From NCBI RefSeq assembly GCF_905475395.1, contig NC_058337.1, forward strand, positions 118,166,368 to 118,230,367: DNA of 64,000 nucleotides, read 5' to 3'. The notes beneath the pieces are model-generated. The model did not search any database. It had not been told where the DNA came from and saw only the letters and a program-made list of their open reading frames with translations. The stretch's first letter is position 1. The number at the start of each line of letters is the position of its first letter. Below are positions 3,866 through 63,957 of the stretch, piece by piece. The stretch comes from Chrysoperla carnea. Lineage: Eukaryota > Arthropoda > Insecta > Neuroptera > Chrysopidae. The translations under genes were made by a program, and so were the position numbers.

Positions 3866-6800
3866 CTAAACATAAATTTCGAAATCAAATTTGATGTAAC
3901 TATTTTATGTCAAAAAAATCAAATTCTAAACTAATATTTTCATTGAAATTTAATTTTTTAAGAAATTTAAATCGTTTTTTTTATTAACTGTATAGTTACA
4001 TCCTTACGTTTTGGATTTATAAATTCATCGTTTCAGAAGGGCGACAAAAAAGAGCATACTTCTTTTGAAATTTTTTAGAAAACTGAAAAATACACTTAAT
4101 TAGAAAGAATAGAATCATAACTAAAGCTAATATATCCAGGGCCTGATCTAAGGAGTTGCAAGCCGGGCAAAAGTAAGAGCGTTTGTACGCCCGAAGTTCT
4201 TAATTTTCCCTCTTGAAGATAAAATTTTTTTTTTAATGTTAGATACTTTTGCAGCTGTAAATCCTTAGACGGACCAACATATTTTAAAGTGCTGTCTTGG
4301 CTTATAATTTTTTGAATGCATTCTCCTAAGAAAATTATAAAATAGTACTTGAGCCAAGCCGTGAGAAAGAAGAAGAAATACCTAAGTATAAAAAAGAAAC
4401 AAACTTTTTCGATATATACCCAGATCACCCTGATTCATTTACTGAATATCGGGTTGTTTGTTTCCATGTAGTATTAACAAACAATTTATGATCGAATTCT
4501 TGAAGGATCAACCGCCCTAGATTTCGTCAGGTTATCAGAATAAATGCTGACATATGTACAATTGTTTCTTTTCATATTATTATTATGGGAATAATGTACA
4601 AGACCAAGAAGAATTTGTTCCTTTATTCTAGGTCCACAGATTCCCACTCCATTCACCTAATGATGAATTTGAAAAAACGCTAAAATATTTAAAAATTAAC
4701 GACAATTCTAAAATTTATGATGTTGGCGAAGTTTATTGAAAATATTCATTCAGAAGCGAAAAATTAAATTTCAATGAATCTAAATAAAATAGAGTAAGAT
4801 CCCGGTGCCCCCAGACGTTACTTATTTTCTTATAAGAAATATAAATGGGATACAGTAGTGTTAGTACGTACTTTGAGTGTGTGCATACCTGCTACCTTGG
4901 GTCGACGGCCAATTCATAGGTACCAGGTGCTAAAGGTAGATAAATACAGTACTGATTTTTCTCAAATTCTCAGTGCTGATTTTTACATATGTTTTAGATA
5001 TTTTTGTTAAAAATCAATAATCATTATTGCCAGACACTTTCCATCGGCACTTACCCTTACCAGACGCTTTAAAGCTTCAAAAAAAAACAACATATTCTTA
5101 CTTATGATCTCACTCTTGATTTTTATATATGATACTAAGGGAACTATTTGAACACCCCTGGTCAGCAGCCAGACCAATTGGAGGGGTCAAACATCCCCCC
5201 AGACACACATAAAGTGTCGCTATGTGTATAAGCGCGAGGGCATTATTTGTACGCTTGAGTGTGAGAGAGATATCTATTTATGGATATCTTTCTTTATTAT
5301 TGTCGTCTCTAGGCTACTCTATTCCGTGCTACTCGATTCAGTGCATCTGTGATTCTAAACTACATGAAGAAAATGAAAAGCATAAGGAGTTCATTAATAA
5401 ATTTGAAAATTATTCGCTTTCAAAAATTTACTATCATCATCCTTGCAAATTAGAGTTTTTTTATAAAACATCAGTAAAAAAAGAAACACCCAAAAGTGAT
5501 TGGCATGATCTTCGTCAGCATCATCAAACTGCTTTTGAGGAAATATCTGCTTTAATTAATGAAAATATAATAAAAAAAGGACGATGCTATTTTTTGACTT
5601 ATCTTCATAGATATTACATGGAAATATTAAATGAAAGTGAAGAAGGGAATTCTACAAAAATTAAAGGAAGTTTCACTCCACACAATTTAGAAATCAAGAT
5701 AATAAAAGCATTTGATAAGCAAATTAAATTTTTTATCATTCAGAATAAAAAATTAGTAGCTCCGAAAAATTTAATTTCTATTGATGACCAATAATTTCAG
5801 TATTTGAAGGATGAAGACATTTTACACAAAGCTGCTTTATTATTGCGAAAATCTATTTTGCAAACTGAAAAAAAAATTGCCACAACTTATAACCGCTCAA
5901 AACCTTAAAGAAGGTGAAATATCGATACCACAAGATTTATTAGACTTTTATTACACTCTGATAGCCGGTAGCAATCGAAAGCGCAAAAATAATCCAAAAT
6001 GTATTCGTCAAGTCAAATCTTACTGTGAAGATGTCGTGTATGGTGTTTATAACGGACAAGTCAAAACGTCGAAACATATTGTGCTCGGAATGTCCTTGAA
6101 AAGTTTAACAAGTAGTCGCAAAATTATTGATGTAATTCATAGGTACGGTCATTGCATTAGTTATCCAGCTGTAGAAGAGCTGGAAACCGAAGCAACATAT
6201 ACTTCAATACAGCAGTCAAGTATATGTCCTGAAGCAATTGTAAAATCACCACATCTCTGTACTGGGGTTGCTTTTGATAATTTTGATAGGTTTGTGGAAA
6301 CTAACAGTGGCAAAGATACATTGCACGATACTGTCGGGATCATCTATCAAAATATTGATTTAGATAATCCAGATGAATCCCAATTGATAAGTTTACCCGC
6401 TGTTAACAATGAGACACCTTTAAATTCGAAGACGAGGAGACGAAGAACTTGCCAACATTGGGTTGATGATGACTTATCAAACTTAGACGATGATGACAGT
6501 AAAGATCACGCTGAATTGTAAAATGACATGTATAGCTTTGTATAATTTTAAGATTTAATAAACATGAATTTTTTAAATAGTAGTATTCAATTTTACTCGA
6601 TGATAAGATGTTAAACATATTTTAAAGAAACTTATATTTATTATTCATAAAATTTTCTCAACCCAGATCACTTTAAAATACCTTGTAATCTTCAGGTTCG
6701 ATTCCATTTTGCATGTAACGAATCTTTAATCTCTCTTGATCATATCGAACAGAGCAGAATTTTAGCGACACTTTATGTGTGTCTGGGGGATGTTTGACCC

Positions 6801-9484
6801 CTCCAATTGGTCTGGCTGCTGACCAGGGGTGTTCAAATAGATCCCTTAGTATCATATATAAAAATCAAGAGTGAGATCATAAGTAAGAATATGTTGTTTT
6901 TTTTTTTGAAGCTTTAAAGCGTCTGGTAAGGGTAAGTGCCGATGGAAAGTGTCTGGCAATAATGATTATTGATTTTTAACAAAAATATCTAAAACATATG
7001 TAAAAATCAGCACTGAGAATTTGAGAAAAATCAGTACTGTATTTATCTACCTTTAGCACCTGGTACCTATGAATTGGCCGTCGACCCAAGGTAGCAGGTA
7101 TGCACACACTCAAAGTACGTACTAACACTACTGTATCCCATTTATATTTCTTATGAGAAAATAAGTAACGTCTGGGGGCACCGGGATCTTGGTCTAAAAT
7201 GTTAATATTATGGAAAATGGAAAATGATTACCAAAGTTTCTGTGATTTGATGTTTCTTAAACATATGTTTCTTGAGCTCAAATTTCCGTGACATAACAGC
7301 AGCGCAAATTGGACATTTTGTGCCGCCAGTATGTAATTGTAGATGTAACCGTAGACTATTCGGATGACGAAATACTTTCATGCATTTTGAACAAGGAAAC
7401 AATGTTGTTGTCTTACCTGCGGCACCAAACATATCCATTGGGATAGGGAGTCCCAAATTAAATAAAATGTAAAATCAAACATGAATCCAGAAATTTTCCA
7501 GATTATTCTTTTTGTTTGGGAGTGAATGGTTTCATGTTTGAGTGTACAACAGTTTCCCTTTCAATATACATCTAATCAATATTTTATGTTTTTTATAACT
7601 TACCATCTTGATCTGCAGAAGGTCCTGGGGTACTACTAGTTTCCGTTGTTTGTTCCGATATAACATTGCCTGTTTCGTCTTTGCGTTTATAAGTTGCTGT
7701 AGCTGTTGCCGTTACAGTTGCAGTTCGTCCTAAATTAAATGATCAAGATAAATCTGCGAAACTTCTTCGAAAGTTTTACTGAAAGTTCTAAATAATTTTA
7801 ATTTAAATGAACTTTTGATGTGATTAATTATGACTTCTTTGAACTAGGAGAGCTCAAAGCAATTAAGTAAAGTAATTAAGGGAAGTTTGCAAAAATAGGT
7901 TTTTCGCGTTTTTCAGCAAAACGATGAGTTTTACAGCAAAAATAGTTCAGACAAAAATTAGAGATAATCCGATTCTCTACCAAAAGTGTCTCTAAACCTT
8001 TTTTCATAAGTATTGCCATTTTCGTGATATAGCGGTTCAAAGAATTGAGCAAATAATTTTTTTCGTAATACTTACATTTTTGAACCGTTATACGAGTAAA
8101 AATATGAGGACTAATTTTTGATGAACCAGCTTCTCCATCTTGGCGCTGTCTTTTCACAGCATCAATGCTACTCTTTCGAGTATAATTTTTTCGACACTGC
8201 ACTTGAATTTTTACATATGTTTAGTCTTTCAAGTACTCCGAAAATTCACCACTTCTTTCAATACTTACGACTAACAGTATTTTGTGGAGTATGAGACCTT
8301 TGAAATGAGACAGATTTACGAGCATCACCACGCTGACAATTGAATGGAAGACAGACAGATGTTACTCAGGTCATGCTATTAAATAAAAATAGGGACGGAG
8401 TTCTTGATGTATAAGATATAGGGACTCATATTTTTACTCGTATAACGTTTCAAAAATGTATACAAACGTATTACGAATAAAATAATTTTTCCAATTTTTG
8501 AACCGCTATATAACGAAAATGGCAGCACTTATAAAAAAAGCTGCAGAGACACATTTTGTAGCAAATTGAATGATCTACAATTTTTGTCTGAACTATTTTT
8601 GCTGTTTAACTCACCATTTTGCTGAAAAACGCGAAAAATCTATTTTTGCAAACTTCCCCCCTCAATAAAATTTTTTGCACAAGGGAGATTGATGTGGACT
8701 TTTCACAATTCATTTATAATAGTATTCTGAACATTCATACCAATTTTTAGCTCTATGGGAATTTTTGTAACCTTCAAAGTGTAATTTGACTGGATAATAA
8801 ATTCATTTTTAATTACTAACCTGTAATAAAAGAAGTATTTTTTTGATTCAATTCAGAAACATCAATCAATTCTTTCCCGTAAACCTCTCCAACATAATTA
8901 TAATTTTCATTTGAATTTTCCATCATAGATGCATTTTCATTCAATTTATTAACCGACGAACCATCCAAAACATTTGTCTGTTCATCATTAGTAAGTCGCC
9001 GTTTTTTCTTATTATTTGGTGAAAATTTCTCAGGAATTCTTTCAACTTGCTGCTGTTGCGTTTCGTCTCCAATCGGTGGTAAACATCGATTATCAACTTC
9101 TTCTACAGGCAAAACTGGTGATTCTCGTCCAGAATCAGTTAAACCACGTACTTCTAAAAGCTCTGCCGTTTGCAAGAAAGAAGTTAATTGATCACTAATC
9201 ACAGACACCTCACCTTGGTACATAAACGATACAATCGCTGATAAATCTGTGTAGCTAACATTTCGTAAGATTACAATAGGATGTTGACATGGATTTTCTT
9301 TGAAAAGATCTCGAAAATACGGACTACATGCAGATAACATGATTTTATGGGCACGTATCTTGCCACCATCACAACTTAGTGTAACATCCACTAAGTTATC
9401 GTCGTGGCGAAGAGAATCGAATGCTCCGGAGATATGATTGGAATAGTTATTCCAACGTAAGGCATATTGTTCAGTACACATCAT
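3621..9484 (-). CDS. BTB/POZ C2H2 zinc-finger transcription factor (Broad/tramtrack/lola type)
   Basis: This is a sequence-specific nuclear regulator of the insect BTB-zinc-finger class. Exon 1 (9484-8821) encodes a BTB/POZ dimerisation domain at about residues 5-118. It has the class hallmarks RWNNY, FVDVTL-like VDVTLSCDGG, AHKIMLSACSPYF, HPIVILRNV and FMYQGEVSV, and is followed by a polar linker. Exon 2 (7729-7604) adds a Thr/Ala-rich linker (TATATATYKRK). Two alternative last exons can follow: 7416-7208 or 3865-3621, each with a pair of C2H2 fingers and both entered in the same phase, because exon 2 leaves one base (G). This matches the alternative C-terminal finger pairs of Broad, tramtrack and lola. 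The BTB block looks closest to Broad (RWNNY, CSPYFRxL, PCxHP), but I do not assign orthology. The start at 9484 (MMCTEQYALRWNN) fits the family. The introns carry two transposons. Confidence 0.85.
5222..5794 (+). CDS. Transposon ORF 1, N-terminal part of a putative transposase
   Basis: The frame encodes 190 residues and starts exactly where the left inverted repeat ends. No enzyme motif is visible. At about residues 69-76 a YHHPCKLEFFYK block resembles the H-x-x-C-R/K-x-x-Y motif near the N-terminus of an uncharacterised family of transposon proteins. Downstream, QTAFEEISALINENII and FLTYLHRYYMEIL match that family's next conserved helices as I remember them. The identical frame is present at 23613-24185 on the minus strand. 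Function is inferred only from position in the element. Confidence 0.5.
   Translation: MCISARALFVRLSVREISIYGYLSLLLSSLGYSIPCYSIQCICDSKLHEENEKHKEFINKFENYSLSKIYYHHPCKLEFFYKTSVKKETPKSDWHDLRQHHQTAFEEISALINENIIKKGRCYFLTYLHRYYMEILNESEEGNSTKIKGSFTPHNLEIKIIKAFDKQIKFFIIQNKKLVAPKNLISIDDQ
5811..6521 (+). CDS. Transposon ORF 2, central part of the same putative protein
   Basis: The frame encodes 236 residues. Residues 80-115 (YCEDVVYGVYNGQVKTSKHI, then GMSLKSLTSSRKIID) are the most conserved block of the uncharacterised family mentioned for ORF 1. The block VAFDNFDRFVETNSGKDTLH near residue 153 is the family's next hallmark. The last 30 residues are very acidic (DDDLSNLDDDDS). The text between ORF 1 and ORF 2, and an A9 run near 5870, look like sites where the original single frame was lost. 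Identical in the second copy at 22886-23596 (minus). Confidence 0.5.
   Translation: MKTFYTKLLYYCENLFCKLKKKLPQLITAQNLKEGEISIPQDLLDFYYTLIAGSNRKRKNNPKCIRQVKSYCEDVVYGVYNGQVKTSKHIVLGMSLKSLTSSRKIIDVIHRYGHCISYPAVEELETEATYTSIQQSSICPEAIVKSPHLCTGVAFDNFDRFVETNSGKDTLHDTVGIIYQNIDLDNPDESQLISLPAVNNETPLNSKTRRRRTCQHWVDDDLSNLDDDDSKDHAEL
7208..7416 (-). CDS. Alternative terminal exon, zinc-finger pair A
   Basis: The acceptor GCCGCAG lies just before 7416; the first two bases complete a Gly codon with the G left by the linker exon. Finger 1 is CSKCMKVF...HLQLH and finger 2 CPICAAVM...HMFKKH. The stop is at 7208-7210. The target duplication of the 2.4-kb transposon begins seven bases beyond the stop (7195-7201), so the 3' UTR of this isoform is essentially the transposon. 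Confidence 0.75.
7885..8800 (-). mobile_element. Long-TIR element, family C, copy 1
   Basis: This copy shares long inverted arms (about 350 bp) and a coding core with the element at 48638-49689, in opposite orientation. The arms carry phrases such as TTTTTCAGCAAAACG and ATTTTTACTCGTATAAC. The left arm is truncated: it starts within the TTTGCAAAAATAGG segment. The minus-strand core encodes MQCRKNYTRKSSIDAVKRQ, an H-x-x-C-R-x-x-Y-like motif (histidine present in the other copy). The right end, TCCAGTCAAATTAC in reverse, stops about 20 bases from the donor site of the BTB exon (GT at 8820-8819). Confidence 0.75.
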
Positions 9485-11541: not shown

Positions 11542-14500
11542 TTACTTAGTAACTTCATGCATGGCATTAGCTAAATATTCAACATTCTTGGATGTAACGC
11601 CAGCCATTGAAATACGTCCATCTTTTGTTAAATATATACTGTAATCTTTTGTTAAACGTTCAACTTGATCGGGTTTCATGCCAGTATAACAGAACATACC
11701 AATTTGATCAGTAATATGGTCCCAATTATGTTTTGAACCAATTTTCTTTAGATTTGATTTTAATTGTTCACGACAGTTTATGATACGATCAGCCATTGTT
11801 TTTACATCACCCAACCTAAAAGTAAATACAATATTAAAACTCACTCATTACTGGAATTCAAATTCGAATAAATTCGCTAGATTATTTAATTATAACTATT
11901 TTTATACTATGTATATGAAATATACATAGTATATTAAGTTTAGTCCCAAGTTTGTAACGCTTAAAAATATTGATGCTACGAACAAAATTTTGGATTAGGA
12001 GTTCATAGAATCACCTAATTACTCCATTTCCGTATGTCTGTCCGTCTGTCATCACGATTTCTCAAAAACGAAAAGAGATATCAAGCTGAAATTTTTATAG
12101 TGTACTTAAGACGTAAAAAGTGAGGTCGAGTTCGTAAATGAGCAACATAGGTCAATTGGGTCTCGGGTCCGTAGGACCCATCTTGTAAACCGTTAGAGAT
12201 AGAACAAATATTTAAATGTAAAAATGTTCCTTATAAAAAAATAAACAACTTTTGTTTGAAACATTTTCTTGTAATCATCACTGTTTACCCACGCGATCAC
12301 TAATTAGGTGAAAATTTTGTAGTATGTATTAAAATGGGAATATCAGTTATGTGTGTGTGGCTATTTAAGAGTGGAAATCTTTCTTTATTTACATGACGTC
12401 AAAAACAAACGATTGCGTCATAAAAACTGTTTAACATGGTATTTCAACAATTAAGTCGATTTTCGATAAAATAAAATTTCAAATTTTCCGTAATGCTGAG
12501 ATTAATTTTTTGTATTATAAATACGTATTTCGACTAAATGTAGGTGTCTTCAGCATGGATAGTGTATTTTTCTCGTGCAGGCTTTCCGCTATCTCACAGA
12601 AAAAAGTTACGTCTTTACTAGAAACATTTTACATTCTATTTCTGAGCTATATAGCTTCGTAGGGTGCTGGCTCTTGATGCTAAAAGCCCTCTACTTGATC
12701 TCGACAAAAATGTATATATATCATTCTTTCAATTAGTTACCAGGCAGTTAAATTTTATTTAAATATTAAAGTAAGATTGAAGGTATCTTTACTATCAATG
12801 CATAAACGTCAGTTTAACCACTCAAAAATCTGTGAGGAGTGAAGCAGTTCAAGCATACTTAAAGTCTGTGAAAAAATAGCTAATAACCAAAGGGGTCGTA
12901 GATGAGAAACTTTACAAACTGCTTTTTTTGGTGTACTCTACCACTCCGCTTTCTTCGATACACCCTGTATATCTATTGTATATAATAAGAATAAGATAAT
13001 TACCATTGTTGATATAATTTTTTGTCGGTTAAAATTGTGGTAACAATACGTGCACCATGAATTGGTGGATTTGAGTACATTGGGCGAATTAAAATTTTCA
13101 ATTGTGACAAAATTCGTGCAGCTTCCTCCGGCGATTCACCAACAATTGAGAAGGCACCAACACGTTCACCATACAAGCCCATATTCTTGGCAAAACTTTG
13201 GCATAATGCAATTAGATGTCCATCGTTGATAAATAATCGTACGGCTGCAGCATCTTTTACAATATCACCTGATGCAAATCCTTGATAAGCCATATCAAAG
13301 TATGGGAATAATTTCTTTTTCTTGATTAACTGCGATAATTCTTTCCATTGTTCAAGATTTGGATCAACACCGGTTGGATTGTGTGCGCATGCGTGTAATA
13401 ATACTAGCGAATGTTCTGGTAATTGCTGAAAGAACAAAAATTTTTATTATTTCTCTATTCAAAAGTAGGAAATATTTTCTTTAAAAAAAAATCGCTACAA
13501 ATGATAGCACGTCTAAGTTACAGAATGTTTATGCTTACAAGATAAATAGGGAATATTCATGTATTTTTTTTATATTTTTAATTCATTGTTTACACCGTTA
13601 TAACAAAGTAAAACATATAAATACTGCTTAAAAATGCTGTATTTAAATGTAATAATACATTATAATTTTGAGATATTTAAACGCAGTTTTTTGGCGCTCT
13701 CTGTTGATGACGTATAAGTACGTGATCTGTCAATTGGTGACAGTTCAATGTATAATTAACACTTTAAAAAAATGAATTTACAACACAGAATTTACAAAAA
13801 AGCCGTGGAATAGTAGAATTTAATGAAATACCATATAAAATGTAAGTAATTAATATCATACAGTATTCAACAAATTTGACAAGCCCGTACTTTGATGTCA
13901 CGTCCGTATACAAATTTGAATTTCCATTTTAGAAATTTTTAATTACTAAAATAATGGTTTAGTTGAAATGTCCAGTCATTAAAGTTACGGAAGAAAAATA
14001 TTTGAACCAAATTTAAATTTCATGAATATTCCCTATTGTAGGGACATTCTGCTTAGAAAAAGAAAGTGATTCCTTGTAACATTACAAAAAAATTTGCTCC
14101 CAAATTGCGAAAATTTTTATTTCCCAGCTATTGTGTAGACTTGGATAAAAATCATTTTTAAGAGTAATTTTAACTCAAAAATACAAAATCGGATCCGTTT
14201 GATGATTGGACATGTAATTTCTGAGGTGACATTCAAAATCGTATACATAAGACCGGGAGCAATAATTCATATTACGAATCAAGGAATCACTCTTTAAATT
14301 TTCTTTTACATCCTAAGACTTACCGAAAGATTTTCACATAATCCCGCAAAATCAAGTGAGCAATTATTGGGATTATAATATTTATACTGTTTTGGTGTTA
14401 GTAACGAATGCGTGGCAAGTGGTACGTGATTACCCCATGTGGGTGTCGGCATATAAAGATCCTTACTCTTAAAGAATTTCGAAAAGAATGCATTTCCAAT

Positions 14501-20800: not shown

Positions 20801-23800
20801 TCGTCGAGCTGAAGTAGATTTTTTTAATAAAGTTGATTTGAATGAAGAAGCTTCTTTGGCCGCTGATTATCCTTTAAAAGTACGTTCGTAAAGTGAAATG
20901 ATTCTCTAGTCTTTTTTCCACCTTTTTCTCTAGTCCCATCTTTAAAGAGACAAAGCGAATACAGTTTTAATATATAGGATGTATCATAAATCACGCCGAA
21001 CATGAAGGTATTAAGCTTTCGGCACAATTAAATCAATGGTAAGTTCTGATCCAGGGTATGAAAACTGTCCTGACTCGCCTCCCTCGGCACGTCTATGACA
21101 ACGAATCTCTAGGCAGGTCAAAATAAATCGAATATTAAAGCTAAGCACAATACACTTTTTTAATAACAATATTTTTAACAGTTTATGGAACCTTTATTTG
21201 GTACAAAAAATACCACATATTCTGAATATGTTGGAACATCTTTGGTCGTATGCTGGCCAGTGTCAATATCATTTACAATTGTAGTCGCTTTCTATATGAC
21301 CGAACGAGAACGAAAATTACATCAAATGTCATATTTAATTGGTAAATTTTTAATCTAAAAATTAAAATTTAATTAGTTAAGCTCAAAAAGTGTCCACGAA
21401 ATTGCATAAAGTGACTGGAATGGTTCTCATGTAGCGGAGTGTATGATCTGAATCATAGACATATAAGGATAGACCGCGCTAGATTTTGGGCAGTCGTGTA
21501 AGTGGATGCGATATCTCGATAAATAAAGAATGCTACCTAAATGGCCCTCTGTCCTTGCCTTGGACGTGCACTCACCATCATATATTTAAAAAAATTTCAA
21601 GTTTTATTCGTCCACCCCAACGTCCTAATTTCAATGAGTCGCTGTTGTCCGTCTTTAAAGCACCGAAAAGCAAATCCGATATCGTTACCACCTTTTAGCC
21701 ACAAGAAATCGTGAACGAAAAGTTGCTTACGAATGAAACGAACACATGTACAGAGAATATAAAGATATGTTGAAAATTTTTATTTGATTTTTCGAATTCA
21801 TTATGAGAAAGCTTGACATATCCATAAATTCACCCGTATTTTCGTTCCTATTATAACAGGAATCAATAGGATGGAATCAATCATTGGGTATATTTTATCA
21901 TTTGGAATTATTTTGACTTTATATGCACTCCTTGGAATCGTTATTCTGGTATATGTATGTAATTTGGGGTCAGTTGGCAATGTATTTTATTTACTTCTAA
22001 TAATAATCGCGCAAATAACTTTTTCAACAACGTTTGGTAATTATAATATGAACTGCATCTGAGAACACAACAAAATACAAAAAATACAATATTTTAGGTT
22101 TGACAATTGCAAAAATTTGTAAATCGTGGATTGTAGCATCTTCATGTTTAATTTACGTTACTTTATTTTGTGCATCGATATGTGGTAAGCGAATTTTGGA
22201 AATTATTATAATAGACCAAGATCCCGGTGCCCCCAGACGTTACTTATTTTCTCATAAGAAATATAAATGGGATACAGTAGTGTTAGTACGTACTTTGAGT
22301 GTGTGCATACCTGCTACCTTGGGTCGACGGCCAATTCATAGGTACCAGGTGCTAAAGGTAGATAAATACAGTACTGATTTTTCTCAAATTCTCAGTGCTG
22401 ATTTTTACATATGTTTTAGATATTTTTGTTAAAAATCAATAATCATTATTGCCAGACACTTTCCATCGGCACTTACCCTTACCAGACGCTTTAAAGCTTC
22501 AAAAAAAAAACAACATATTCTTACTTATGATCTCACTCTTGATTTTTATATATGATACTAAGGGATCTATTTGAACACCCCTGGTCAGCAGCCAGACCAA
22601 TTGGAGGGGTCAAACATCCCCCAGACACACATAAAGTGTCGCTAAAATTCTGCTCTGTTCGATATGATCAAGAGAGATTAAAGATTCGTTACATGCAAAA
22701 TGGAATCGAACCTGAAGATTACAAGGTATTTTAAAGTGATCTGGGTTGAGAAAATTTTATGAATAATAAATATAAGTTTCTTTAAAATATGTTTAACATC
22801 TTATCATCGAGTAAAATTGAATACTACTATTTAAAAAATTCATGTTTATTAAATCTTAAAATTATACAAAGCTATACATGTCATTTTACAATTCAGCGTG
22901 ATCTTTACTGTCATCATCGTCTAAGTTTGATAAGTCATCATCAACCCAATGTTGGCAAGTTCTTCGTCTCCTCGTCTTCGAATTTAAAGGTGTCTCATTG
23001 TTAACAGCGGGTAAACTTATCAATTGGGATTCATCTGGATTATCTAAATCAATATTTTGATAGATGATCCCGACAGTATCGTGCAATGTATCTTTGCCAC
23101 TGTTAGTTTCCACAAACCTATCAAAATTATCAAAAGCAACCCCAGTACAGAGATGTGGTGATTTTACAATTGCTTCAGGACATATACTTGACTGCTGTAT
23201 TGAAGTATATGTTGCTTCGGTTTCCAGCTCTTCTACAGCTGGATAACTAATGCAATGACCGTACCTATGAATTACATCAATAATTTTGCGACTACTTGTT
23301 AAACTTTTCAAGGACATTCCGAGCACAATATGTTTCGACGTTTTGACTTGTCCGTTATAAACACCATACACGACATCTTCACAGTAAGATTTGACTTGAC
23401 GAATACATTTTGGATTATTTTTGCGCTTTCGATTGCTACCGGCTATCAGAGTGTAATAAAAGTCTAATAAATCTTGTGGTATCGATATTTCACCTTCTTT
23501 AAGGTTTTGAGCGGTTATAAGTTGTGGCAATTTTTTTTTCAGTTTGCAAAATAGATTTTCGCAATAATAAAGCAGCTTTGTGTAAAATGTCTTCATCCTT
23601 CAAATACTGAAATTATTGGTCATCAATAGAAATTAAATTTTTCGGAGCTACTAATTTTTTATTCTGAATGATAAAAAATTTAATTTGCTTATCAAATGCT
23701 TTTATTATCTTGATTTCTAAATTGTGTGGAGTGAAACTTCCTTTAATTTTTGTAGAATTCCCTTCTTCACTTTCATTTAATATTTCCATGTAATATCTAT

Positions 23801-25149
23801 GAAGATAAGTCAAAAAATAGCATCGTCCTTTTTTTATTATATTTTCATTAATTAAAGCAGATATTTCCTCAAAAGCAGTTTGATGATGCTGACGAAGATC
23901 ATGCCAATCACTTTTGGGTGTTTCTTTTTTTACTGATGTTTTATAAAAAAACTCTAATTTGCAAGGATGATGATAGTAAATTTTTGAAAGCGAATAATTT
24001 TCAAATTTATTAATGAACTCCTTATGCTTTTCATTTTCTTCATGTAGTTTAGAATCACAGATGCACTGAATCGAGTAGCACGGAATAGAGTAGCCTAGAG
24101 ACGACAATAATAAAGAAAGATATCCATAAATAGATATCTCTCTCACACTCAAGCGTACAAATAATGCCCTCGCGCTTATACACATAGCGACACTTTATGT
24201 GTGTCTGGGGGGATGTTTGACCCCTCCAATTGGTCTGGCTGCTGACCAGGGGTGTTCAAATAGTTCCCTTAGTATCATATATAAAAATCAAGAGTGAGAT
24301 CATAAGTAAGAATATGTTGTTTTTTTTTGAAGCTTTAAAGCGTCTGGTAAGGGTAAGTGCCGATGGAAAGTGTCTGGCAATAATGATTATTGATTTTTAA
24401 CAAAAATATCTAAAACATATGTAAAAATCAGCACTGAGAATTTGAGAAAAATCAGTACTGTATTTATCTACCTTTAGCACCTGGTACCTATGAATTGGCC
24501 GTCGACCCAAGGTAGCAGGTATGCACACACTCAAAGTACGTACTAACACTACTGTATCCCATTTATATTTCTTATAAGAAAATAAGTAACGTCTGGGGGC
24601 ACCGGGATCTTACTCTATAATACCGCGGAACATTTGGATATACAAGGTGTATTATAAGCGACGATGAATCTCTAGAAAATTAATTCGTCAAGTCAAAAAA
24701 TCCTTAAAAATTGTTGTTCAAAGTTCTAAAATGAAATTATTTAAAATTTTGATCAGCATTATATCTATTGTCTCTCCGGTTTGTAAATATTAAAATTAAA
24801 ATTTATTTTCTACAACTGTGCTTTTTACAAAAGCTTTCATTTTCTTTATGAAACTGTCGTTCTTGTAAATATAATTATTTTGATATTAAATTTTTTTTTA
24901 AATAGATAGACACTCTTTTTTGTTTGTTTAGGGATAATTTGGCCATCAGCAGCATTACCAAAGTGGTTACAAGTAGTTGCAGAAATTTTACCATTAACAC
25001 ATGGAATAAGATCGGGAAGAAATATTTTACAAAAAGGATTGAATATAACGCATATCAGTGTTTTTCCTGGATTTTATTTACCCTTATTATATGCTATTAT
25101 AAATACAATTATTATTTTACTTCTTATTAAATGTATACCAGAATTTTAA
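17889..25149 (+). CDS. ABC transporter, ABCH subfamily, with degenerate ATPase motifs
   Basis: A half transporter with the ATPase domain first and the membrane domain second, as in insect ABCH (and ABCG) proteins. These are thought to move lipids, for example to the cuticle surface. Exons: 17889-18148, 18836-18926, 19101-19432, 19913-20879, 21182-21341, 21860-22036, 22098-22184, 24932-25149; total 763 residues, with all phases agreeing. Walker A is GPHASGKTT (92-100), the Q-loop is Q140 in GFAPQ, and Walker B is LLILDEPT (211-218). The signature LSGGQ is replaced by LYDDN (190-194), the D-loop Asp by Asn (N222), and the switch His by Asn (N250 in VATANS). Membrane helices follow: the first near ARNLSWSVYFLLVTLSLLV, the rest in exons 5-8, which end IIILLLIKCIPEF. 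Intron 7 holds a 2.4-kb transposon. It may be an ATPase-poor paralogue that needs a partner; that is inference. Confidence 0.88.
22886..23596 (-). CDS. Transposon ORF 2 (copy 2)
   Basis: 236 residues, the same as the frame at 5811-6521, with the conserved blocks GVYNGQVKTSKHIVLGMSL and VAFDNFDRFVE and the acidic tail. Only the N-terminal and central parts of a putative transposase are represented in the element. Confidence 0.5.
   Translation of the reverse strand: MKTFYTKLLYYCENLFCKLKKKLPQLITAQNLKEGEISIPQDLLDFYYTLIAGSNRKRKNNPKCIRQVKSYCEDVVYGVYNGQVKTSKHIVLGMSLKSLTSSRKIIDVIHRYGHCISYPAVEELETEATYTSIQQSSICPEAIVKSPHLCTGVAFDNFDRFVETNSGKDTLHDTVGIIYQNIDLDNPDESQLISLPAVNNETPLNSKTRRRRTCQHWVDDDLSNLDDDDSKDHAEL
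23613..24185 (-). CDS. Transposon ORF 1 (copy 2)
   Basis: 190 residues, the same as the frame at 5222-5794. It begins at the inner edge of the inverted repeat and carries the YHHPCKLEFFYK block. Confidence 0.5.
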   Translation of the reverse strand: MCISARALFVRLSVREISIYGYLSLLLSSLGYSIPCYSIQCICDSKLHEENEKHKEFINKFENYSLSKIYYHHPCKLEFFYKTSVKKETPKSDWHDLRQHHQTAFEEISALINENIIKKGRCYFLTYLHRYYMEILNESEEGNSTKIKGSFTPHNLEIKIIKAFDKQIKFFIIQNKKLVAPKNLISIDDQ

Positions 25150-29200: not shown

Positions 29201-31849
29201 TTTAATGTTTGTGGGGTTATTGCGGGCCGTTTTAGTTCAGATATTTCAATAAATTCAGAATCGATTGTACTAGAAAATACTTCGTTATAATTTTCGGTTA
29301 ATTCGGTTAAATTTAATATATCATCATCTAAATTTTCTTTTATAATTGTTATCTGAAAAATTCAATTTTTTCTATAAATAAATGATTCTAAATATTACTT
29401 CTAAGAATTGAATATTATGTCTTAAAAATTAATTCAAAAGTCCCTAATGTTCAGACAACATCTTTAAATCCCTCAAATAAAATTTCCTTCAAATATCGGC
29501 CTATAATACTAAAAAAATTTTTATACTCTCTCCTTTTTTAGACCCCTCCTCCCTAAAACGGAAATTCAAATTTTTATACGGACGTGACATCAAAGTACGG
29601 GCTTGTCAAATTTGTTGACATACTGTATGATATTAATTACTTACATTTTATATGGTATTTCATTAAATTATACTATTCTACGGCTTTTTATTAAAAAACT
29701 TAATAATAACGAGTGTAAATTCTGTGTTGTAAATTCATTTTATTAAATTGCGTACTCAGGGCGTAAAAAGTGAGGTCGAGTTCGTAAATGAGCAACATAG
29801 GTCAATCGGGTCTTGACCTATGGGTCCGTAGGACCCATCTTGTAAACCGTTAAAGATTGAACAAAAGTTTAAGTGTAAAAAATGTTCCTTATCAAAAAAT
29901 AAACAACTTTTGTTTGAAAATTTTTTTCGTAAATATCACTATTTACCCGCGAGGGTGCAAATTAGGCGTAAATTGTATAGTATGTATTTTATAAAGTTGT
30001 ATATGTATGTGCAATGTGAGAGTAATCAACACTATTTATGCATGGTATTTCAACAATTAACTCAGTCAATTGTTTGTTTTCAATTCTCTTTAGTTAAAAA
30101 AAATTTACCTCATTCGATGAATTTTCTTTAGCATCATTATTAAGCTGTTCAATATTTTGAATTGTACCCAATTCGGCAACAACTAAATCAGACACGTCCA
30201 TTAAATTCTCTTCAGTTAACACTTCAATGTTACAAACATTATTTGTCGTAATAAAATCGGTATTGAATATTGATGATATTGATACTAACGATTCATTTAC
30301 ATCTTCTGAATCTTCTGTTAAATTTTGTACATCTACTGAAAAAAAAACCGAAATTTTTGATTATATTCCCACTTGTAAAAAAAAAACAAATTTTAGGTTT
30401 CTTAATTAAGATTAAGTTTTTTAATCTTAGAGTCCCACTTCGCTGGGGCCTTCATTATAATCTCAGTGCAGATAAAATTCGGTGTATTCCTCTTTATAAT
30501 ATTAGTGCAGATAAAATTCGATGTATAGAATAATTTTGACCCAAATAATACCAAATCTTATGGAGGGTCTCCCAGAAGTAACAGGCGCCCTTGTTGAATC
30601 AGGAAGAAAATACAATTCTAAAACGCACTTAACCCGCCTCTTCCTACACATTCACACACTTGCACACGTATGCATAAGTACACACCAGCGTAACGTTGAA
30701 ACTCTCACGTCTCACTCTCGAGTGTCTTACTACCACCCCCTGTCTTGCCGCTGCAGCGCGCTTCTGTTTATCTATTTTAATTAATAGCTAATTATCCGTG
30801 CATCTGATCATAAAATGAAATAGGACTTTTTGACTTTGAGTTTTATGTTCTACCTGATACCCAAGAGGGTTCGTTCTCCTGGGAAACCCTGTACAAAGCC
30901 CTATATTTTGAAATGATTTTTTGTCTCATATGTTGAAAAGGTTGTGTTTACCTGTTGTGGTTAAATTTGTAGAAATAAACGGTTTTTCTTGGTTTACATA
31001 GTAATCAAACTCTTCTGATAAATTGGCATCGCTTGCAAATGCGCAAACACATGCATAATAATGTATACATTTTTTCGAAAAACCACCGAAATTCGTTAAA
31101 TCATCTTTCGGAAAATGACCTTTTCCAAAATCTGTACATCCACAAAAGAATTTATTTTCTAAACGTTCCTTATTTTTCGTTTGAATAAACGATAAATGCA
31201 AATAGCCTAATGGATGTTTCGGGCTAGTTTGACATTTAACAGCTAATATATTTTTTGAGACACGCTGTACTAATGGTCCAACAGTTTCAGTCGCTAATAG
31301 CCATAATTCTTGTTTAATTTCATTCGATACATTTAACGAACTTAGTATGCTATTCCGAACAATCAACGGTGTAGCTTCATTCGCACATTTTATGGCCGCT
31401 AAAACATGAGTACAGGATGATATGGACGAAGCGGAATGCTGTTCTGATTCATGACACTTTAAAATGGACGTATTAAACGAACGTTGACATGTATCCACAA
31501 AACATAGGGCCGCTGATTCGTTTATTAAATTAATCGTAGGATCTAAGTCAATACTGGTTAAATGTGTTTGAATATAAGGTAATTGAACAAATCCTCGATG
31601 ATCGGGTGCTCGATCACGGACACGAACTGAATACACTTGTGTCGTAGTACCGGTCAATAATTTCACAGCATCGGAACTTAATTTTCGTTTTAAGCCGATT
31701 TCCTTAAAAACTACATCACATTTTTTATTTTTACAACTAACACCGCGTGTACCATTGAATGTTCCACATTTTGGACATTTTCGTATTCCACGTAATGTGG
31801 CACGACCTAAATCGGCAAATACTGACTTTAATTTATCGTCATTGGACAT
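26272..31849 (-). CDS. C2orf42: C2orf42 orthologue (conserved nuclear-type protein of unknown role)
   Basis: Exons 31849-30952, 30335-30109, 29352-28909, 27720-27547 and 26604-26272 join in phase to 691 residues (human about 574). The N-terminus carries the family's zinc-ribbon-like block: [17 protein letters not shown] followed by SCKNKKC, four cysteines at about residues 25-44. Then come the conserved [38 protein letters not shown] and [14 protein letters not shown] blocks. Exon 3 encodes [20 protein letters not shown] and DGKPEPLKF; exon 4 [12 protein letters not shown] and HIWHITNIF; exon 5 [39 protein letters not shown] and EWIPDI. The middle (exon 2 and the start of exon 3) is an acidic, Ser/Thr/Asn-rich linker longer than in human. 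No biochemical function is established that I know of. Confidence 0.93.
26650..26937. repeat. Long near-palindrome inside C2orf42 intron 4
   Basis: Arms of about 125 bp (26650-26779 and 26812-26937) are inverted repeats with few mismatches. Each arm has AAAACCGACTTCAAAAGAAA at its outer edge and GTGTCAGCCAAG at its inner edge, around a 30-base centre. The outer ACCGACTTC phrase is common at the ends of short insect repeats. Confidence 0.8.
26900..27285 (+). repeat. Short interspersed element-like segment ending in AAGTCGGTT
   Basis: Bounded by two AAGTCGGTT phrases. It contains two related ATCATC(G/A)AAATCGGTT phrases and a 3' GAGAACCTCCTTTTTTTGG stretch, which I know from common insect short repeats. 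A similar pair of ACCGACTTC phrases brackets 33276-33570 in the racemase intron. Confidence 0.5.
27989..28775. mobile_element. Fold-back (long-TIR) non-autonomous element
   Basis: The outer arms match when reversed: TTCTATC(G/A)AACCAAAGTGGC at 27989 and at 28775. The match continues through AGAGGTAACTATACTTG(T)AAATTT, AAGTCATTCTTTATAAGAAG and the CATACTTTTC-type segment. An inner pair, ACTCTATACAAAATATCAAG (28290s) and its reverse (28530s), extends the fold-back. No coding capacity. It lies in C2orf42 intron 3. Confidence 0.75.
29552..29741 (-). repeat. Interspersed repeat B, copy 2
   Basis: The inverted counterpart of 13768-13934, lying in C2orf42 intron 2. It abuts, within about 10 bases, the truncated family A copy that follows. 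Confidence 0.7.
29752..30088 (-). repeat. Interspersed repeat family A, copy 4 (truncated)
   Basis: It starts inside the family at GCGTACTCAGGGCGTAAAAA and runs to the outer AATTGTTTGTTTTCA edge. The hairpin end and the GACAGAC tract are missing. The outer edge stops about 20 bases from the donor of C2orf42 exon 2 (30108). Confidence 0.75.
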
Positions 31850-32059
31850 AGTTCTACTTAATTATACAAAAATACATAACATTTATGTTATGAATTTGTT
31901 GAAATAAATTTCTAGAGCAAAGTTTAATGAATGTTTTGAACGTCAATAGAAATGTCAATTTTTTATTTCTGATAGAAATCAGCTGATTATTACCAACCTA
32001 AAGTTGAATTAATACCAACAGTTGAGGATGAATTCTTGTTGACTTCGAGTTGAGACATA

Positions 32060-59507: not shown

Positions 59508-60670
59508 CACAGGTCTGCGACTAAAAAACTGCATAGGATTTTTTTACATTTTCTTATAGATTTTGACCTCCCAAAAACAGGGAAACTATTCAAAACATTC
59601 TATCACATAGGTTTTCATAGATATAAGTAACAACATAAACTAGTCTTAAAGTAGTATTATATAGTATTTTATAGTAATATTATATAAAACTAGTCTTAAA
59701 GTAGTATTATTGCACAATAAAAATAAATTAGCTTCGCTTCCAATGAATTATTCTGTGTATGTGGAAGACAACTAACTATAGCAATTACCCTATCCCATTA
59801 CCCTGGAAAGAATCAAATATCAGGACCATCAATGGATTATTTGTGGGGACTTGAAAATACTCACAATGCTTTTGGGTCAGCAGGCAGGCTATACTAAATA
59901 CCCATGCTTCTTATGCTTATGGGATAGTAGAGCCAGAAAACAGCACTGGACTAAAAGTGATTGGCCACCCCGAGAAACTTTAAAACCTGGGGAGAAAAAT
60001 GTTATCAATACTGGTGCCGCCAGAAAAAGTTTTGTTGCCACCTCTCCATATCAAATTGGGGTTGATGAAACAATTTGTAAAATCACTGCAAAAGGATGGA
60101 GACTGTTTTAAATATCTATGTACAAAATTCCCGAAGGTGTCAGAAGCAAAGTTGAAAGAGGGACACCTTCTTTGTGGAGACCTGACACCTTCTTTGTGGA
60201 AAGTATGATTGAGAAGGAAAAAGAAGCTTGGGTATCGTTCAAGGATGTAGTGCGAAAGTTTTTAGGAAATACTAAGGATCCTGACTACAAAACCATTGTT
60301 CAACTAGCAGCATACGAAGCTCAAGGCTGCAAGATAAGCCTGAAAGTCCATTTTTTACACTCCCACATAGAATATTTTCCTGGAAAAACCTGGGAGCTTA
60401 CAGTGAAGAACAGGGGGAGCGGTTTCTCCAGGATGTCCGCGATATCGAGAGACGGTACCAAGGAAGATGGGATGTCACCATGCTTGCAGGCTACTGTATA
60501 GTTTTTAATAAACAAATGCTTTTACCAATTTTTTGTGTTTGAATTTGCAAAAAAACCTTACGTGATAGAAAAAAATGACCATCATTTCTGAAATCAGCGC
60601 ATTATAAAACATAAAATTTAGTAAAAAAATCTCATGCAGCTGACAAAAAAATTTTTTTTGCAGACCTGTG
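59508..60670 (+). mobile_element. Deleted TIR element with CACAGGTCTGC ends
   Basis: Inverted ends CACAGGTCTGC lie at 59508 and, reversed, at 60670. A second matched segment, GCAT(A/G)-GATTTTTTTAC, lies inside each end. Direct TAA repeats (59505-59507 and 60671-60673) suit a 3-bp target duplication. CAC ends with 2-4 bp duplications are typical of the CMC (CACTA-Mirage-Chapaev) group; assignment here is tentative. The interior carries pieces of an uncharacterised protein that is highly repeated in insect genomes: LLGQQAGYTKYPCFLCLWDS at 59866-59925, then LLPPLHIKLGLMKQFVK and KEAWVSFKDVVRKFLGN. The pieces fall in different frames, so this copy is dead. Confidence 0.65.
59851..60501 (+). pseudogene. 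Broken copy of a repeated element protein (GQQAGYTKYPCFLC family)
   Basis: Three overlapping partial frames (59851-60111, 59999-60208, 60118-60501) each match successive parts of one arthropod repeat-encoded protein. The first contains a CxxC-like pair in YPCFLCLWDSRARKQHW. The last includes SLKVHFLHSHIEYFP, a conserved block near the end of the family protein. Its role in transposition is not known to me. Its position between inverted ends makes it the likely cargo or partial transposase of the enclosing element. Confidence 0.6.
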
Positions 60671-60932
60671 TAATTAGTGAACAGTGACGGTGTACGCAGC
60701 TTAAATATATTTCTATTATTTATAGTGATGGCCCAAGAATTAATAAATAAAATGTCTTATTTAGATTATACATGATTAAATTTTAACAAAAAAAAAAAAT
60801 ATTCCGACAATTCGGTTTCCCTGTTTACTTCGATATTCAAAGAAGTACAAAGGAATGAAAACACAATATTATGTTTTTATTTTTAACAAATAATTTTTAA
60901 AAAAACCAGTCAAAATCGTAAATATTTTTTTG

Positions 60933-63900
60933 TTATTTAGAATTTGAAGTTTTATTATTGTTTGTAAGTAATTTTTTCACTTTCACTATTTCTTGTGATA
61001 ACTTTTTAAAACGACTACTTAAACGTGCATTTTGTGTACGTAATTTTCGTATTAAAAATTTTTGACTTTCCATACGTGTCTTTGTTAATTCATAATAACG
61101 TTTAGCATTCTTTTCACATGACATATCTGCTACAGTGTAATCGCCCACATAGCGTGGTTGAGCAAAACGTCGTCGAACTGCACAACGTCTGAAACAAAAA
61201 CAGAATTTACAAATATTGAACTTCTTCCCTACATTTAGCAACTTTTTATACCATGTATATGAAATATACATGGTATATTAAGTTTAGTCCCAAGTTTGTA
61301 ACGCTTAATAATATTGATGCTATGAACAAAATTTTGGTATGGATGTTTATAAAATCACCTAATTAGTTCATATCTGATTGTTCGTCCGCCCGCCCGTCCG
61401 TCTGTCAACTCGATAACTCAAAAAACGAAAAAAGATATCAAGCTGAAATTTTTACAGCGTACTCAGGATGGAAAAAGTGAGGTCGAGTTCGTAAATGAAC
61501 AACATAGGTCATTAGGGTCATGGGTTCGTAGGACCCATTTTGTAAACCGTTAGAGATAGAACAAAAGTTAAAATGTAAAAAAATTCCTTATAAAAAAATA
61601 AACAACTTTTGTTTGAAACATTTTTTCGTAAACATCACTGTTTACCCGTGAGGGCGCAAATAAGGCGTAAATTGTATAGTATGTATTATATAGGAATATC
61701 AGTTATGTATGTGTGACATGTATGTATGTATAATGTTCAGTTAATTGTTTGTTTTCACTTGTTTAATAAAAAATGAATAATTTTCTCATTAACAAGGAAA
61801 TGGAAATTCAATTAACTTGACCTAATTATCTAATAACTCGATAATAACCTAATTAAATCGATAAGTTGATTTTGGATCAAGCGCGATTTATAACATCGGG
61901 TTCCAAACTAGAATGTTATTTTCATAAGCTAGTAGTTCTTTATTTAATTAATAAACTAGATTCAAAGAGCGTGAAATTTGTTAATTTGTAATATGACTGA
62001 AGTATACAGATCTAATAAAAAGATTGAAACGTTACTAAGTCTTACATTCTCTGTCACTGCCCATCTCTTGCCACAAGGAAGTGGACTCACTTAAACCAGC
62101 CTTTCTTTGACTCCTCCTGCAAAGCACTCCTGCTGTTCTTAAACAGTTCTAAATGGTTCTCATGGAGTAGTGGTCGGAGATAGGCCAATCTTTTTTTCGA
62201 TATCACAACGGACCCAGTGATCTAATTGTGTCCCACCCTAGCACAGCCACTCTAACCTAATCTAACCTATGGACGTGAATAAAGACATTGATTACCTTAA
62301 AAGTTCATCTGTATATACACCTTCACAACACAATGTATTTTCGTAGCTTTCAAATGGTGCCCTAGTAATTTTCTCCTCACTCGGCTTGATCCCAAAGGCC
62401 TCTTCAAACAACAAATTTGCTTTCTCCATACGATTTTCAGCTTTACTTGGTTTCAACAATTTCGAATTTAATAATACATACGTTGGTGTAAAAGGTATAG
62501 GTGCCAAATTGAATTCTGGTACACTATTTATCGTGACCTGATCCCGTAAATCACTATCAATTGGTTCCAAAATAAATAAATTCGGTTTAATCTCATCGAA
62601 TTTATCTGCTTCAATCTTTTCCCGACCAACTTGTGATAACAGGACACAATCAACTACCGGCGTCCGTTCTTCCAAACATAAATCATAACTGTTTATTTTA
62701 AAATTTCTTGGTGTTTCACGTTTCGGTTGAATGTTGGTTTCGGGTTTTAAATCAGGTGATGGTGATTTTTTAATATCAGTATTTTTAATTTTTTTATCTG
62801 ATTTTGAGTATGTATGATCTCGCAGATTTAAGCTCGTATTTTCTCGTAATTGTGGCCTATCATCAGGTTTATCATTTAAGTACGCATGATCAGTATGATG
62901 TTCAAGTACCTGTTCAAGGACCGGTGTTAGTTTTTCATTTTCATCGACTTTAGCCCCACGTTTCTTTTGACTGTTTAGCGAATAATTATGTTCATCATGA
63001 CGTAAAATGGTTGGCACTGTCTTATTGGCCGAAGGTTCCTTTCCAGCACTTAATCGAGTATAAGTATGATCAGTTTTCCCAGGTTTTGTTGCTGAATATC
63101 GATGATCTGTAGATACTTCGTTTCTTTGTGGCTCAGGTTTTGATGTTGAATATGTGTGATCATTGGTTTTAATCACCTTTGTTGGGGGTTGAGTATTCCC
63201 AAGAGCTTTTCGTTCACGGAAATTGTATTTGTTAGTTGGCTCGCTTATTTTTTGTAAAGGTGATTTTCGTTTTTTGCGAAGTACTTTCTTTTTCTGCTTG
63301 TTAAGTGTTTTATCGAAAATTGATGGAACTGCGCACGGTTTTAATATTAAACGGCCACATGGATCAATATTGAAATCGCTTGTTTTGAAATGTTTTGAAC
63401 AAATCACATGAAATGGTTTCACTTCTAAATTTTTTTGATTTAATACCGTTAACCATTTTTCTTGACGATCCTTATCTTTTGGAAAGCTGTAAATAAATTA
63501 TTTATCAAACATAATAGATCATTTTATATAGGATGCATGTAAACTAATCGCATCTAACCCTGTGATCGAGTTAGCAAGGGTCTGGAGATTTTTTGGCCCT
63601 TGAGTTCACCTTGTGTTTAGTAGCAGCACTCGATTACTATTCGGTAAGGATTATTAATAACCTGTATTTTATTGTGGAAAATAATGATTGTTACTCTTTT
63701 CAAATTTTAATCTCGACATTAATGCATTTTCGAATTTAATTTTATTAAAATAATTCTTAGAGCATGGTTAAATACTTAAATTACACCCTGTATAAAAGAA
63801 ACGTGGACTAAACTCAAAAAAATTTTTAAAGATCTTAATTTGAAATAGATTCATCTAAATTTTAAATTAAAAAAAGAATTACTTACTTATAAAAGAATAC

Positions 63901-63957
63901 TTCAGTATCATTTGTAAATTTTTGCCCACATCCAAAAGCTGAACATAGTTTAACCAT
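60933..63957 (-). CDS. THAP-domain protein with six HCF-1-binding-type motifs
   Basis: A DNA-binding THAP zinc-finger protein. Exons 63957-63887, 63486-62296 and 61188-60933 join in phase to 505 residues. The N-terminal THAP finger is complete: C5 and C10 (KLCSAFGCG), C53 and H56 (CSKHF), then FNIDPCGRLILKPCAVPSIF, which includes the AVPTIF-type box (76-81). A basic stretch (KKKVLRKKRK) follows and may be a nuclear signal. Residues 133-250 hold six copies of (D/E)HxY: DHTY 133, DHRY 151, DHTY 163, EHNY 189, DHAY 223, DHTY 247. In THAP1 and THAP3 a single motif of this form recruits HCF-1. The last exon encodes a basic coiled coil (about 440-500). Intron 2 holds family A copy 6. I cannot match it to a specific named THAP gene. 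Confidence 0.88.
61243..61765 (-). repeat. Interspersed repeat family A, copy 6
   Basis: An inverted copy in intron 2 of the THAP gene, starting about 55 bases from the exon 3 acceptor (61189-61190). The terminal hairpin (61246-61276) is perfectly paired: TATACCATGTATAT around GAA. It then follows the family through CCGCCCGCCCGTCCGTCTGTC to AATTGTTTGTTTTCACTTG. Confidence 0.8.
61766..62295. other. Remainder of THAP gene intron 2
   Basis: AT-rich intron sequence between repeat copy 6 and the end of exon 2. Contains a CTAACCTAATCTAACCTA run near 62250. No gene or element boundaries recognised. Confidence 0.4.

Follow-up and report, generated by a model that had tools for sequence, protein, structure and literature searches.

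The ligands of HCF, a general co-regulator, make contact with it via a peptide of four residues, and the basis of stable, selective recruitment by so small an element is not obvious. Among human THAP proteins, THAP1 and THAP3 carry an HCF-1-binding motif. THAP7 and THAP11 bind the Kelch domain of HCF-1 via this motif, according to an excerpted account in which human THAP proteins having both features place the motif 1-13 residues before a coiled coil (PMC6944463). In that same account, THAP5 contains the motif, yet failed to associate with HCF-1, and THAP8 does not contain the motif, yet associated with HCF-1 (PMC6944463). Further, C. elegans SET-24 is described as binding the Kelch domain of HCF-1 without an identical motif (excerpts of PMC12886896). 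The case of THAP5 means that the motif alone is no proof of binding, and that of SET-24 means that motif and binding can separate in either direction.

The motif is not confined to THAP proteins. Available portions of the literature describe it in VP16 (EHAY), E2F1, MYC (QHNY) and MLL5, and the ASXL transframe products (EH[N/S]Y) are proposed there as HCF-1 ligands (PMC7793627, PMC2082077, PMC12886896, PMC5644247). From similarly partial sources, HCF is tied to activating as well as repressing chromatin activities (PMC2814863, PMC3234250, PMC2082077), and the motifs of Drosophila repressive domains include one resembling the HCF-1-binding motif (excerpt of PMC9890238). In this report, we describe a THAP-family gene of the lacewing Chrysoperla carnea whose predicted product contains six copies of (D/E)HxY. 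The gene lies in a 64,000-nt stretch of chromosome 1 (C1:118166368-118230367; hereafter the window, in whose coordinates positions are given). Genome searches covered the C. carnea assembly (337 contigs, 559,487,470 bases).

Gene Structure and Protein Architecture

The gene is on the minus strand, as are all of its features given below. A three-exon model with GT-AG introns and matching phases yields a protein of 505 aa. Exon 1 (63887..63957) has an ATG frame and a GTAAGT donor, and it supplies the start codon and the first zinc ligands, C5 and C10; its residues 1-24 were recovered by a genome search with the 505-aa query. Exon 2 (62296..63486), bounded by an AG acceptor and a GTAATC donor, has a 401-codon open frame and carries the remainder of the THAP domain, the motif array with all six motifs, and a linker. 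Exon 3, including the stop (60933..61188), has a TTTCAG acceptor of matching phase and encodes a C-terminal helix predicted to form a coiled coil. The join of exons 2 and 3 is predicted from these splice signals and from phase. A possible poly-A signal, AATAAA (60876..60881), is found about 50 nt past the stop.

Intron 2 contains a high-copy repeat that reaches to about 55 nt from exon 3. A search with this interspersed repeat (61240-61700, minus strand) gave 9239 first-look candidates, 40 of which were scored. Leaving aside the repeat itself and a short self-match, the copies among the matches listed are 88-90% identical. A related stretch (87%) occurs in the window at 12064-12331.

The order of parts in the protein is an N-terminal THAP zinc finger, the motif array and the C-terminal helix. 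THAP is the sole Pfam family in the spliced protein (PF05485; residues 5-81, profile positions 1-87), and its score of 55.3 bits exceeds the cut-off (23.9). The translation contains the C2CH ligands of the finger (C5, C10, C53 and H56) as well as P26, W35, F57 and AVPSIF at residues 76-81; we take the P, W and F and an AVPxIF domain end to be THAP signature residues. By sequence (phmmer), the nearest solved domains are those of THAP2 (2.2e-10) and THAP1 (3e-10).

A downstream coiled coil is predicted in most human THAP members. For exon 3 alone, AlphaFold2 in single-sequence mode predicted one long helix spanning residues 440-504 (mean pLDDT 86.3, pTM 0.50). Of the seven heptad registers of this helix, the best has hydrophobic residues at 11 of 18 a/d positions. 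Provided that the predicted join of exons 2 and 3 is correct, the modelled helix would be the downstream coiled coil of the THAP family, and the protein may dimerise through it.

The Motif Array

An earlier note on this DNA had called attention to six tetrapeptides of the form (D/E)HxY between residues 133 and 250 (62808-63161) with spacings of 12-34 residues, and our translation of the minus strand agrees on all of these points. Motif 1 is DHTY (residues 133-136; 63150..63161), motif 2 is DHRY (151-154; 63096..63107), motif 3 is DHTY (163-166; 63060..63071), motif 4 is EHNY (189-192; 62982..62993), motif 5 is DHAY (223-226; 62880..62891), and motif 6 is DHTY (247-250; 62808..62819). Their start-to-start distances are 18, 12, 26, 34 and 24 residues, such that linkers of 14, 8, 22, 30 and 20 residues separate successive motifs. 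As the note had also stated, each tetrapeptide matches the HCF-1-binding consensus, including its D/E position. Motif 4 has the form EHNY, which the accessible part of one report describes as matching the consensus perfectly (PMC7793627).

Two other descriptions in the note require correction. The motifs were said to be mostly followed by an S/T-x-x-K/P tail, which only two of the six have; S/T is found at +1 in five of six, motif 5 being the one without it, and K at +4 in three of six. The setting was also described as of low complexity, which entropy does not bear out. K, T, D and S abound in this polar region, and its entropy in 20-residue windows has a mean of 3.44 bits (minimum 2.87), compared with 3.48 bits for the THAP domain and 3.38 bits for residues 266-420. 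A 12-nt tandem micro-duplication (62899-62922, minus strand; 92%) is present just before motif 5 in the reading direction; it falls within LEQVLEHH and places an extra EHH beside DHAY.

The six-motif array is real and exceeds chance. The maximum number of (D/E)HxY matches was two (in 24 shuffles) when the whole 505-aa protein was shuffled 20,000 times, and three (in 2 shuffles) when residues 91-330 were shuffled equally often, versus the six observed. Within residues 91-330, the motifs account for six of the nine His and six of the eight Tyr. We also allowed for every pattern of the form a-b-x-d: DHxY is present five times, a count that the commonest pattern reached in 3 of 5000 shuffles. When the alphabet was merged, so that the array counts six copies, some pattern occurred at least six times in 241 of 5000 shuffles. 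This control performs well with exact residues but is weak with the merged alphabet, and the strong chance figure therefore depends on the motif being defined beforehand; (D/E)HxY was indeed a previously defined motif, as portions of two papers attest (PMC6944463, PMC2082077). A survey of open frames of at least 100 residues in the window and in the own-genome loci examined (181 distinct frames with 31,927 residues, the array counted in; many of the frames are not genes) found three (D/E)HxY matches outside the array, each single in its frame.

Origin of the Array

The note had proposed that the motifs may have arisen by repeat expansion. This proposal holds for motifs 1 and 2, which are associated with two copies (63080-63107 and 63134-63161, together 63080..63161) of a 28-nt unit; the copies are 82% identical and 54 nt apart, and on the plus strand they end in motif 2 and motif 1, respectively. 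As a general origin it is not supported; most flanks do not align. Two shorter families, one of 16 nt that groups motifs 1, 2 and 6 (81%) and one of 14 nt that groups motifs 3 and 5 (86%), consist mostly of the motif codons themselves. Downstream similarity had p <0.05 in three of 15 unit pairs (1-2, 1-5 and 2-5), and pair 1-2 alone survives correction for 15 tests (16/24 nt, p 0.0004). Upstream, the lowest p was 0.011, for pair 4-5. The codons of the motifs vary across the units (CAC/CAT, TAT/TAC, GAT/GAA).

On this comparison of flanks and repeats, we reject a recent tandem-repeat origin of the array except for units 1-2. Because the flanks are mostly unalignable and the codons differ, most of the array must be either old or of independent origin. 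The units share D/E, H and Y, a pattern that would fit selection on the tetrapeptide.

Genomic Context and Relatives

There are at least 142 THAP matches in the C. carnea genome, and some of them form families of near-identical scores. Apart from the three exons of the gene itself, the 505-aa query retrieved a single THAP exon, and that weakly (E 1.6e-4); a second copy or paralogue of the protein was not found in this genome search. We rejected a transposon origin on the grounds that this search found no second copy of the protein despite the THAP families in the genome, and for the same reason the gene is treated here as an intact host THAP gene. Of the 141 other THAP matches, 28 were examined for (D/E)HxY in the THAP-bearing frame only, and none contained it; at one locus (L033), a separate frame downstream of the THAP match has a single DHDY.

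Orthologues were sought with exon 2 (396 aa) in a genome-contig collection that holds no insect genomes, which yielded 87 pattern stretches, none of them confirmed, and no relative. The same query had one match in a viral-contig collection (L051; 28% identity, E 5e-4). We reject this match as a relative and ascribe it to chance: the contig is 56% GC, and the match shares the search peptide AKVDENEK. Two frames of more than 100 residues at the match have no (D/E)HxY.

The window has other features. An element of about 2.4 kb is present at 4777-7209 (plus strand) and 22202-24622 (minus strand), in opposite orientations and 15.6 kb apart; the copies are 100% identical over 2118 nt and have terminal inverted repeats of about 310 nt. 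Its two open frames (193 and 237 aa) have no Pfam match, and the 237-aa frame has 94 genome matches, some within frames of 1241-1588 residues. A 311-aa open frame at 30926-31861 (minus strand) contains a zinc finger of the zf-tcix family (PF14952), which scores 72.8 bits with a cut-off of 31.2. Just past the 3' end of the THAP gene, on the opposite strand, are adjacent open frames of 86 and 129 aa (59851-60501, plus strand) with no Pfam family above cut-off; our guess is that they are possibly the relic of a decayed mobile element.

HCF in the Lacewing

A search with the Kelch_HCF profile (PF13854) identified four consecutive exons on C6 that cover profile positions 3-343 of 345. They score 304.5, 93, 78.1 and 75.2 bits, the first alone exceeding the cut-off of 113, and the best has an E of 1.8e-88. 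The best of 14 other Kelch_HCF matches scores 47.4 bits. The search thus points to one HCF gene in the genome, and with an HCF Kelch propeller encoded there, the expected partner of the array exists in the lacewing. In the PDB, the lacewing HCF exon has 19 matches, and HCF is not among their names. The lacewing segment RNGKPPCPRLGHSF keeps a proline that we take to align with P134 of human HCF-1. In the available text of one study, changing P134 of human HCF-1 to serine blocks association with motif-bearing proteins (PMC6944463).

Discussion

Judged from its sequence, this protein is best explained as a transcription factor of the THAP family in which the array serves to dock HCF, a reading to which we assign a probability of about 0.6. 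The N-terminal THAP zinc finger would bind DNA, the C-terminal helix would dimerise the protein, and the six tetrapeptides of the polar middle would fit the Kelch propeller and so dock HCF. Multiple sites would at least increase avidity and rebinding. It is more doubtful that several HCF molecules occupy one chain simultaneously. The propeller is some 45-50 angstroms wide, and the 12 residues of the motif 2-3 spacing would extend to about 41 angstroms (an estimate, not a model). This reach being less than the width of the propeller, joint occupation of motifs 2 and 3 is probably impossible, but other motifs may be occupied jointly. Our estimate of the occupancy ceiling is about five HCF molecules per chain.

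Only tentatively, and on balance against the odds, do we go further and suggest a high-valency HCF recruiter, with docking that is away from the coiled coil, six-fold, and offered at twelve sites per dimer. One DNA site could then gather several HCF molecules together with methyltransferase and deacetylase partners, and local HCF clusters might be nucleated. HCF is linked to both activation and repression, and thus the presumed effect on transcription could run either way.

An unlikely alternative to docking by the array, although the most probable of the three considered, is that HCF is bound by just one or two of the tetrapeptides and that the remainder are roleless relics of duplication or drift in an otherwise ordinary THAP protein of the single-motif kind. 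Relics should lose H or Y, however, and all six units retain D/E, H and Y while most of their flanks have diverged. We do note that motifs 1 and 2 share the duplicated, 82%-identical unit of 28 nt, that motif 5 is without the S/T that comes after the other five, and that human THAP proteins with both features, as excerpted, have the motif at a single place before the coiled coil (PMC6944463).

The exact HCF consensus, D/E included, is found here in a THAP protein, and the genome that encodes this protein also encodes an HCF Kelch domain. These facts make it distinctly improbable that the repeated DHxY serves a ligand other than HCF, whether another propeller protein, a tyrosine kinase or phosphotyrosine reader, or a metal bound by His. 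Such a ligand would be in keeping with the little information that four residues hold, with an array that, unlike the motif of human THAP proteins, does not adjoin the coiled coil, and with THAP5, which in the excerpted account has the motif without HCF-1 association (PMC6944463). Least probable is that the array has no binding role and instead reflects composition and short duplications. The polar, K/T/D/S-rich sequence, the one clear 28-nt duplication, the 14-16-nt families around the motifs and the weak merged-alphabet control (241/5000) could be cited in favour of this view. Against it, shuffles that preserved the composition never exceeded three matches, the motifs hold six of the nine His and six of the eight Tyr in the segment, and most units have unrelated flanks.

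If the array docks HCF as we propose, the six-copy protein would be a tool for measuring the avidity and stoichiometry of HCF docking. Further, it would show that the coiled-coil-adjacent motif position of human THAP proteins is not general.

Comparison with Known HCF Ligands

Like human THAP7 and THAP11, the lacewing protein has a THAP zinc finger, (D/E)HxY and a predicted C-terminal coiled coil. Unlike the human THAP proteins, it has six motifs, the last of which ends at residue 250, about 190 residues ahead of a helix that starts at residue 440. The place before the lacewing helix that corresponds to the motif position in human THAP proteins reads RYVGDYTVADM; the sequence there is GDYT, with no histidine. 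The spacing of 1-13 residues is a position rule of the human THAP proteins and lies outside the definition of the motif. This odd position, together with THAP5, THAP8 and SET-24, counts more against the lacewing protein being a standard HCF-binding THAP than against its working like one.

VP16, E2F1, MYC and MLL5 present a tetrapeptide of the kind that, in the portions of the literature available, is recognised by the N-terminal propeller region of HCF-1, and the lacewing protein resembles them in this respect. For these four and the ASXL products, the same portions describe one motif per protein in otherwise unrelated sequences, whereas the lacewing THAP protein has six. Our literature search, which was of partial coverage and thus leaves absence unproven, found no HCF ligand with several motifs per protein. 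The repetition of a single docking peptide along a polar stretch also makes the lacewing protein comparable to the multivalent scaffolds built on short motifs.
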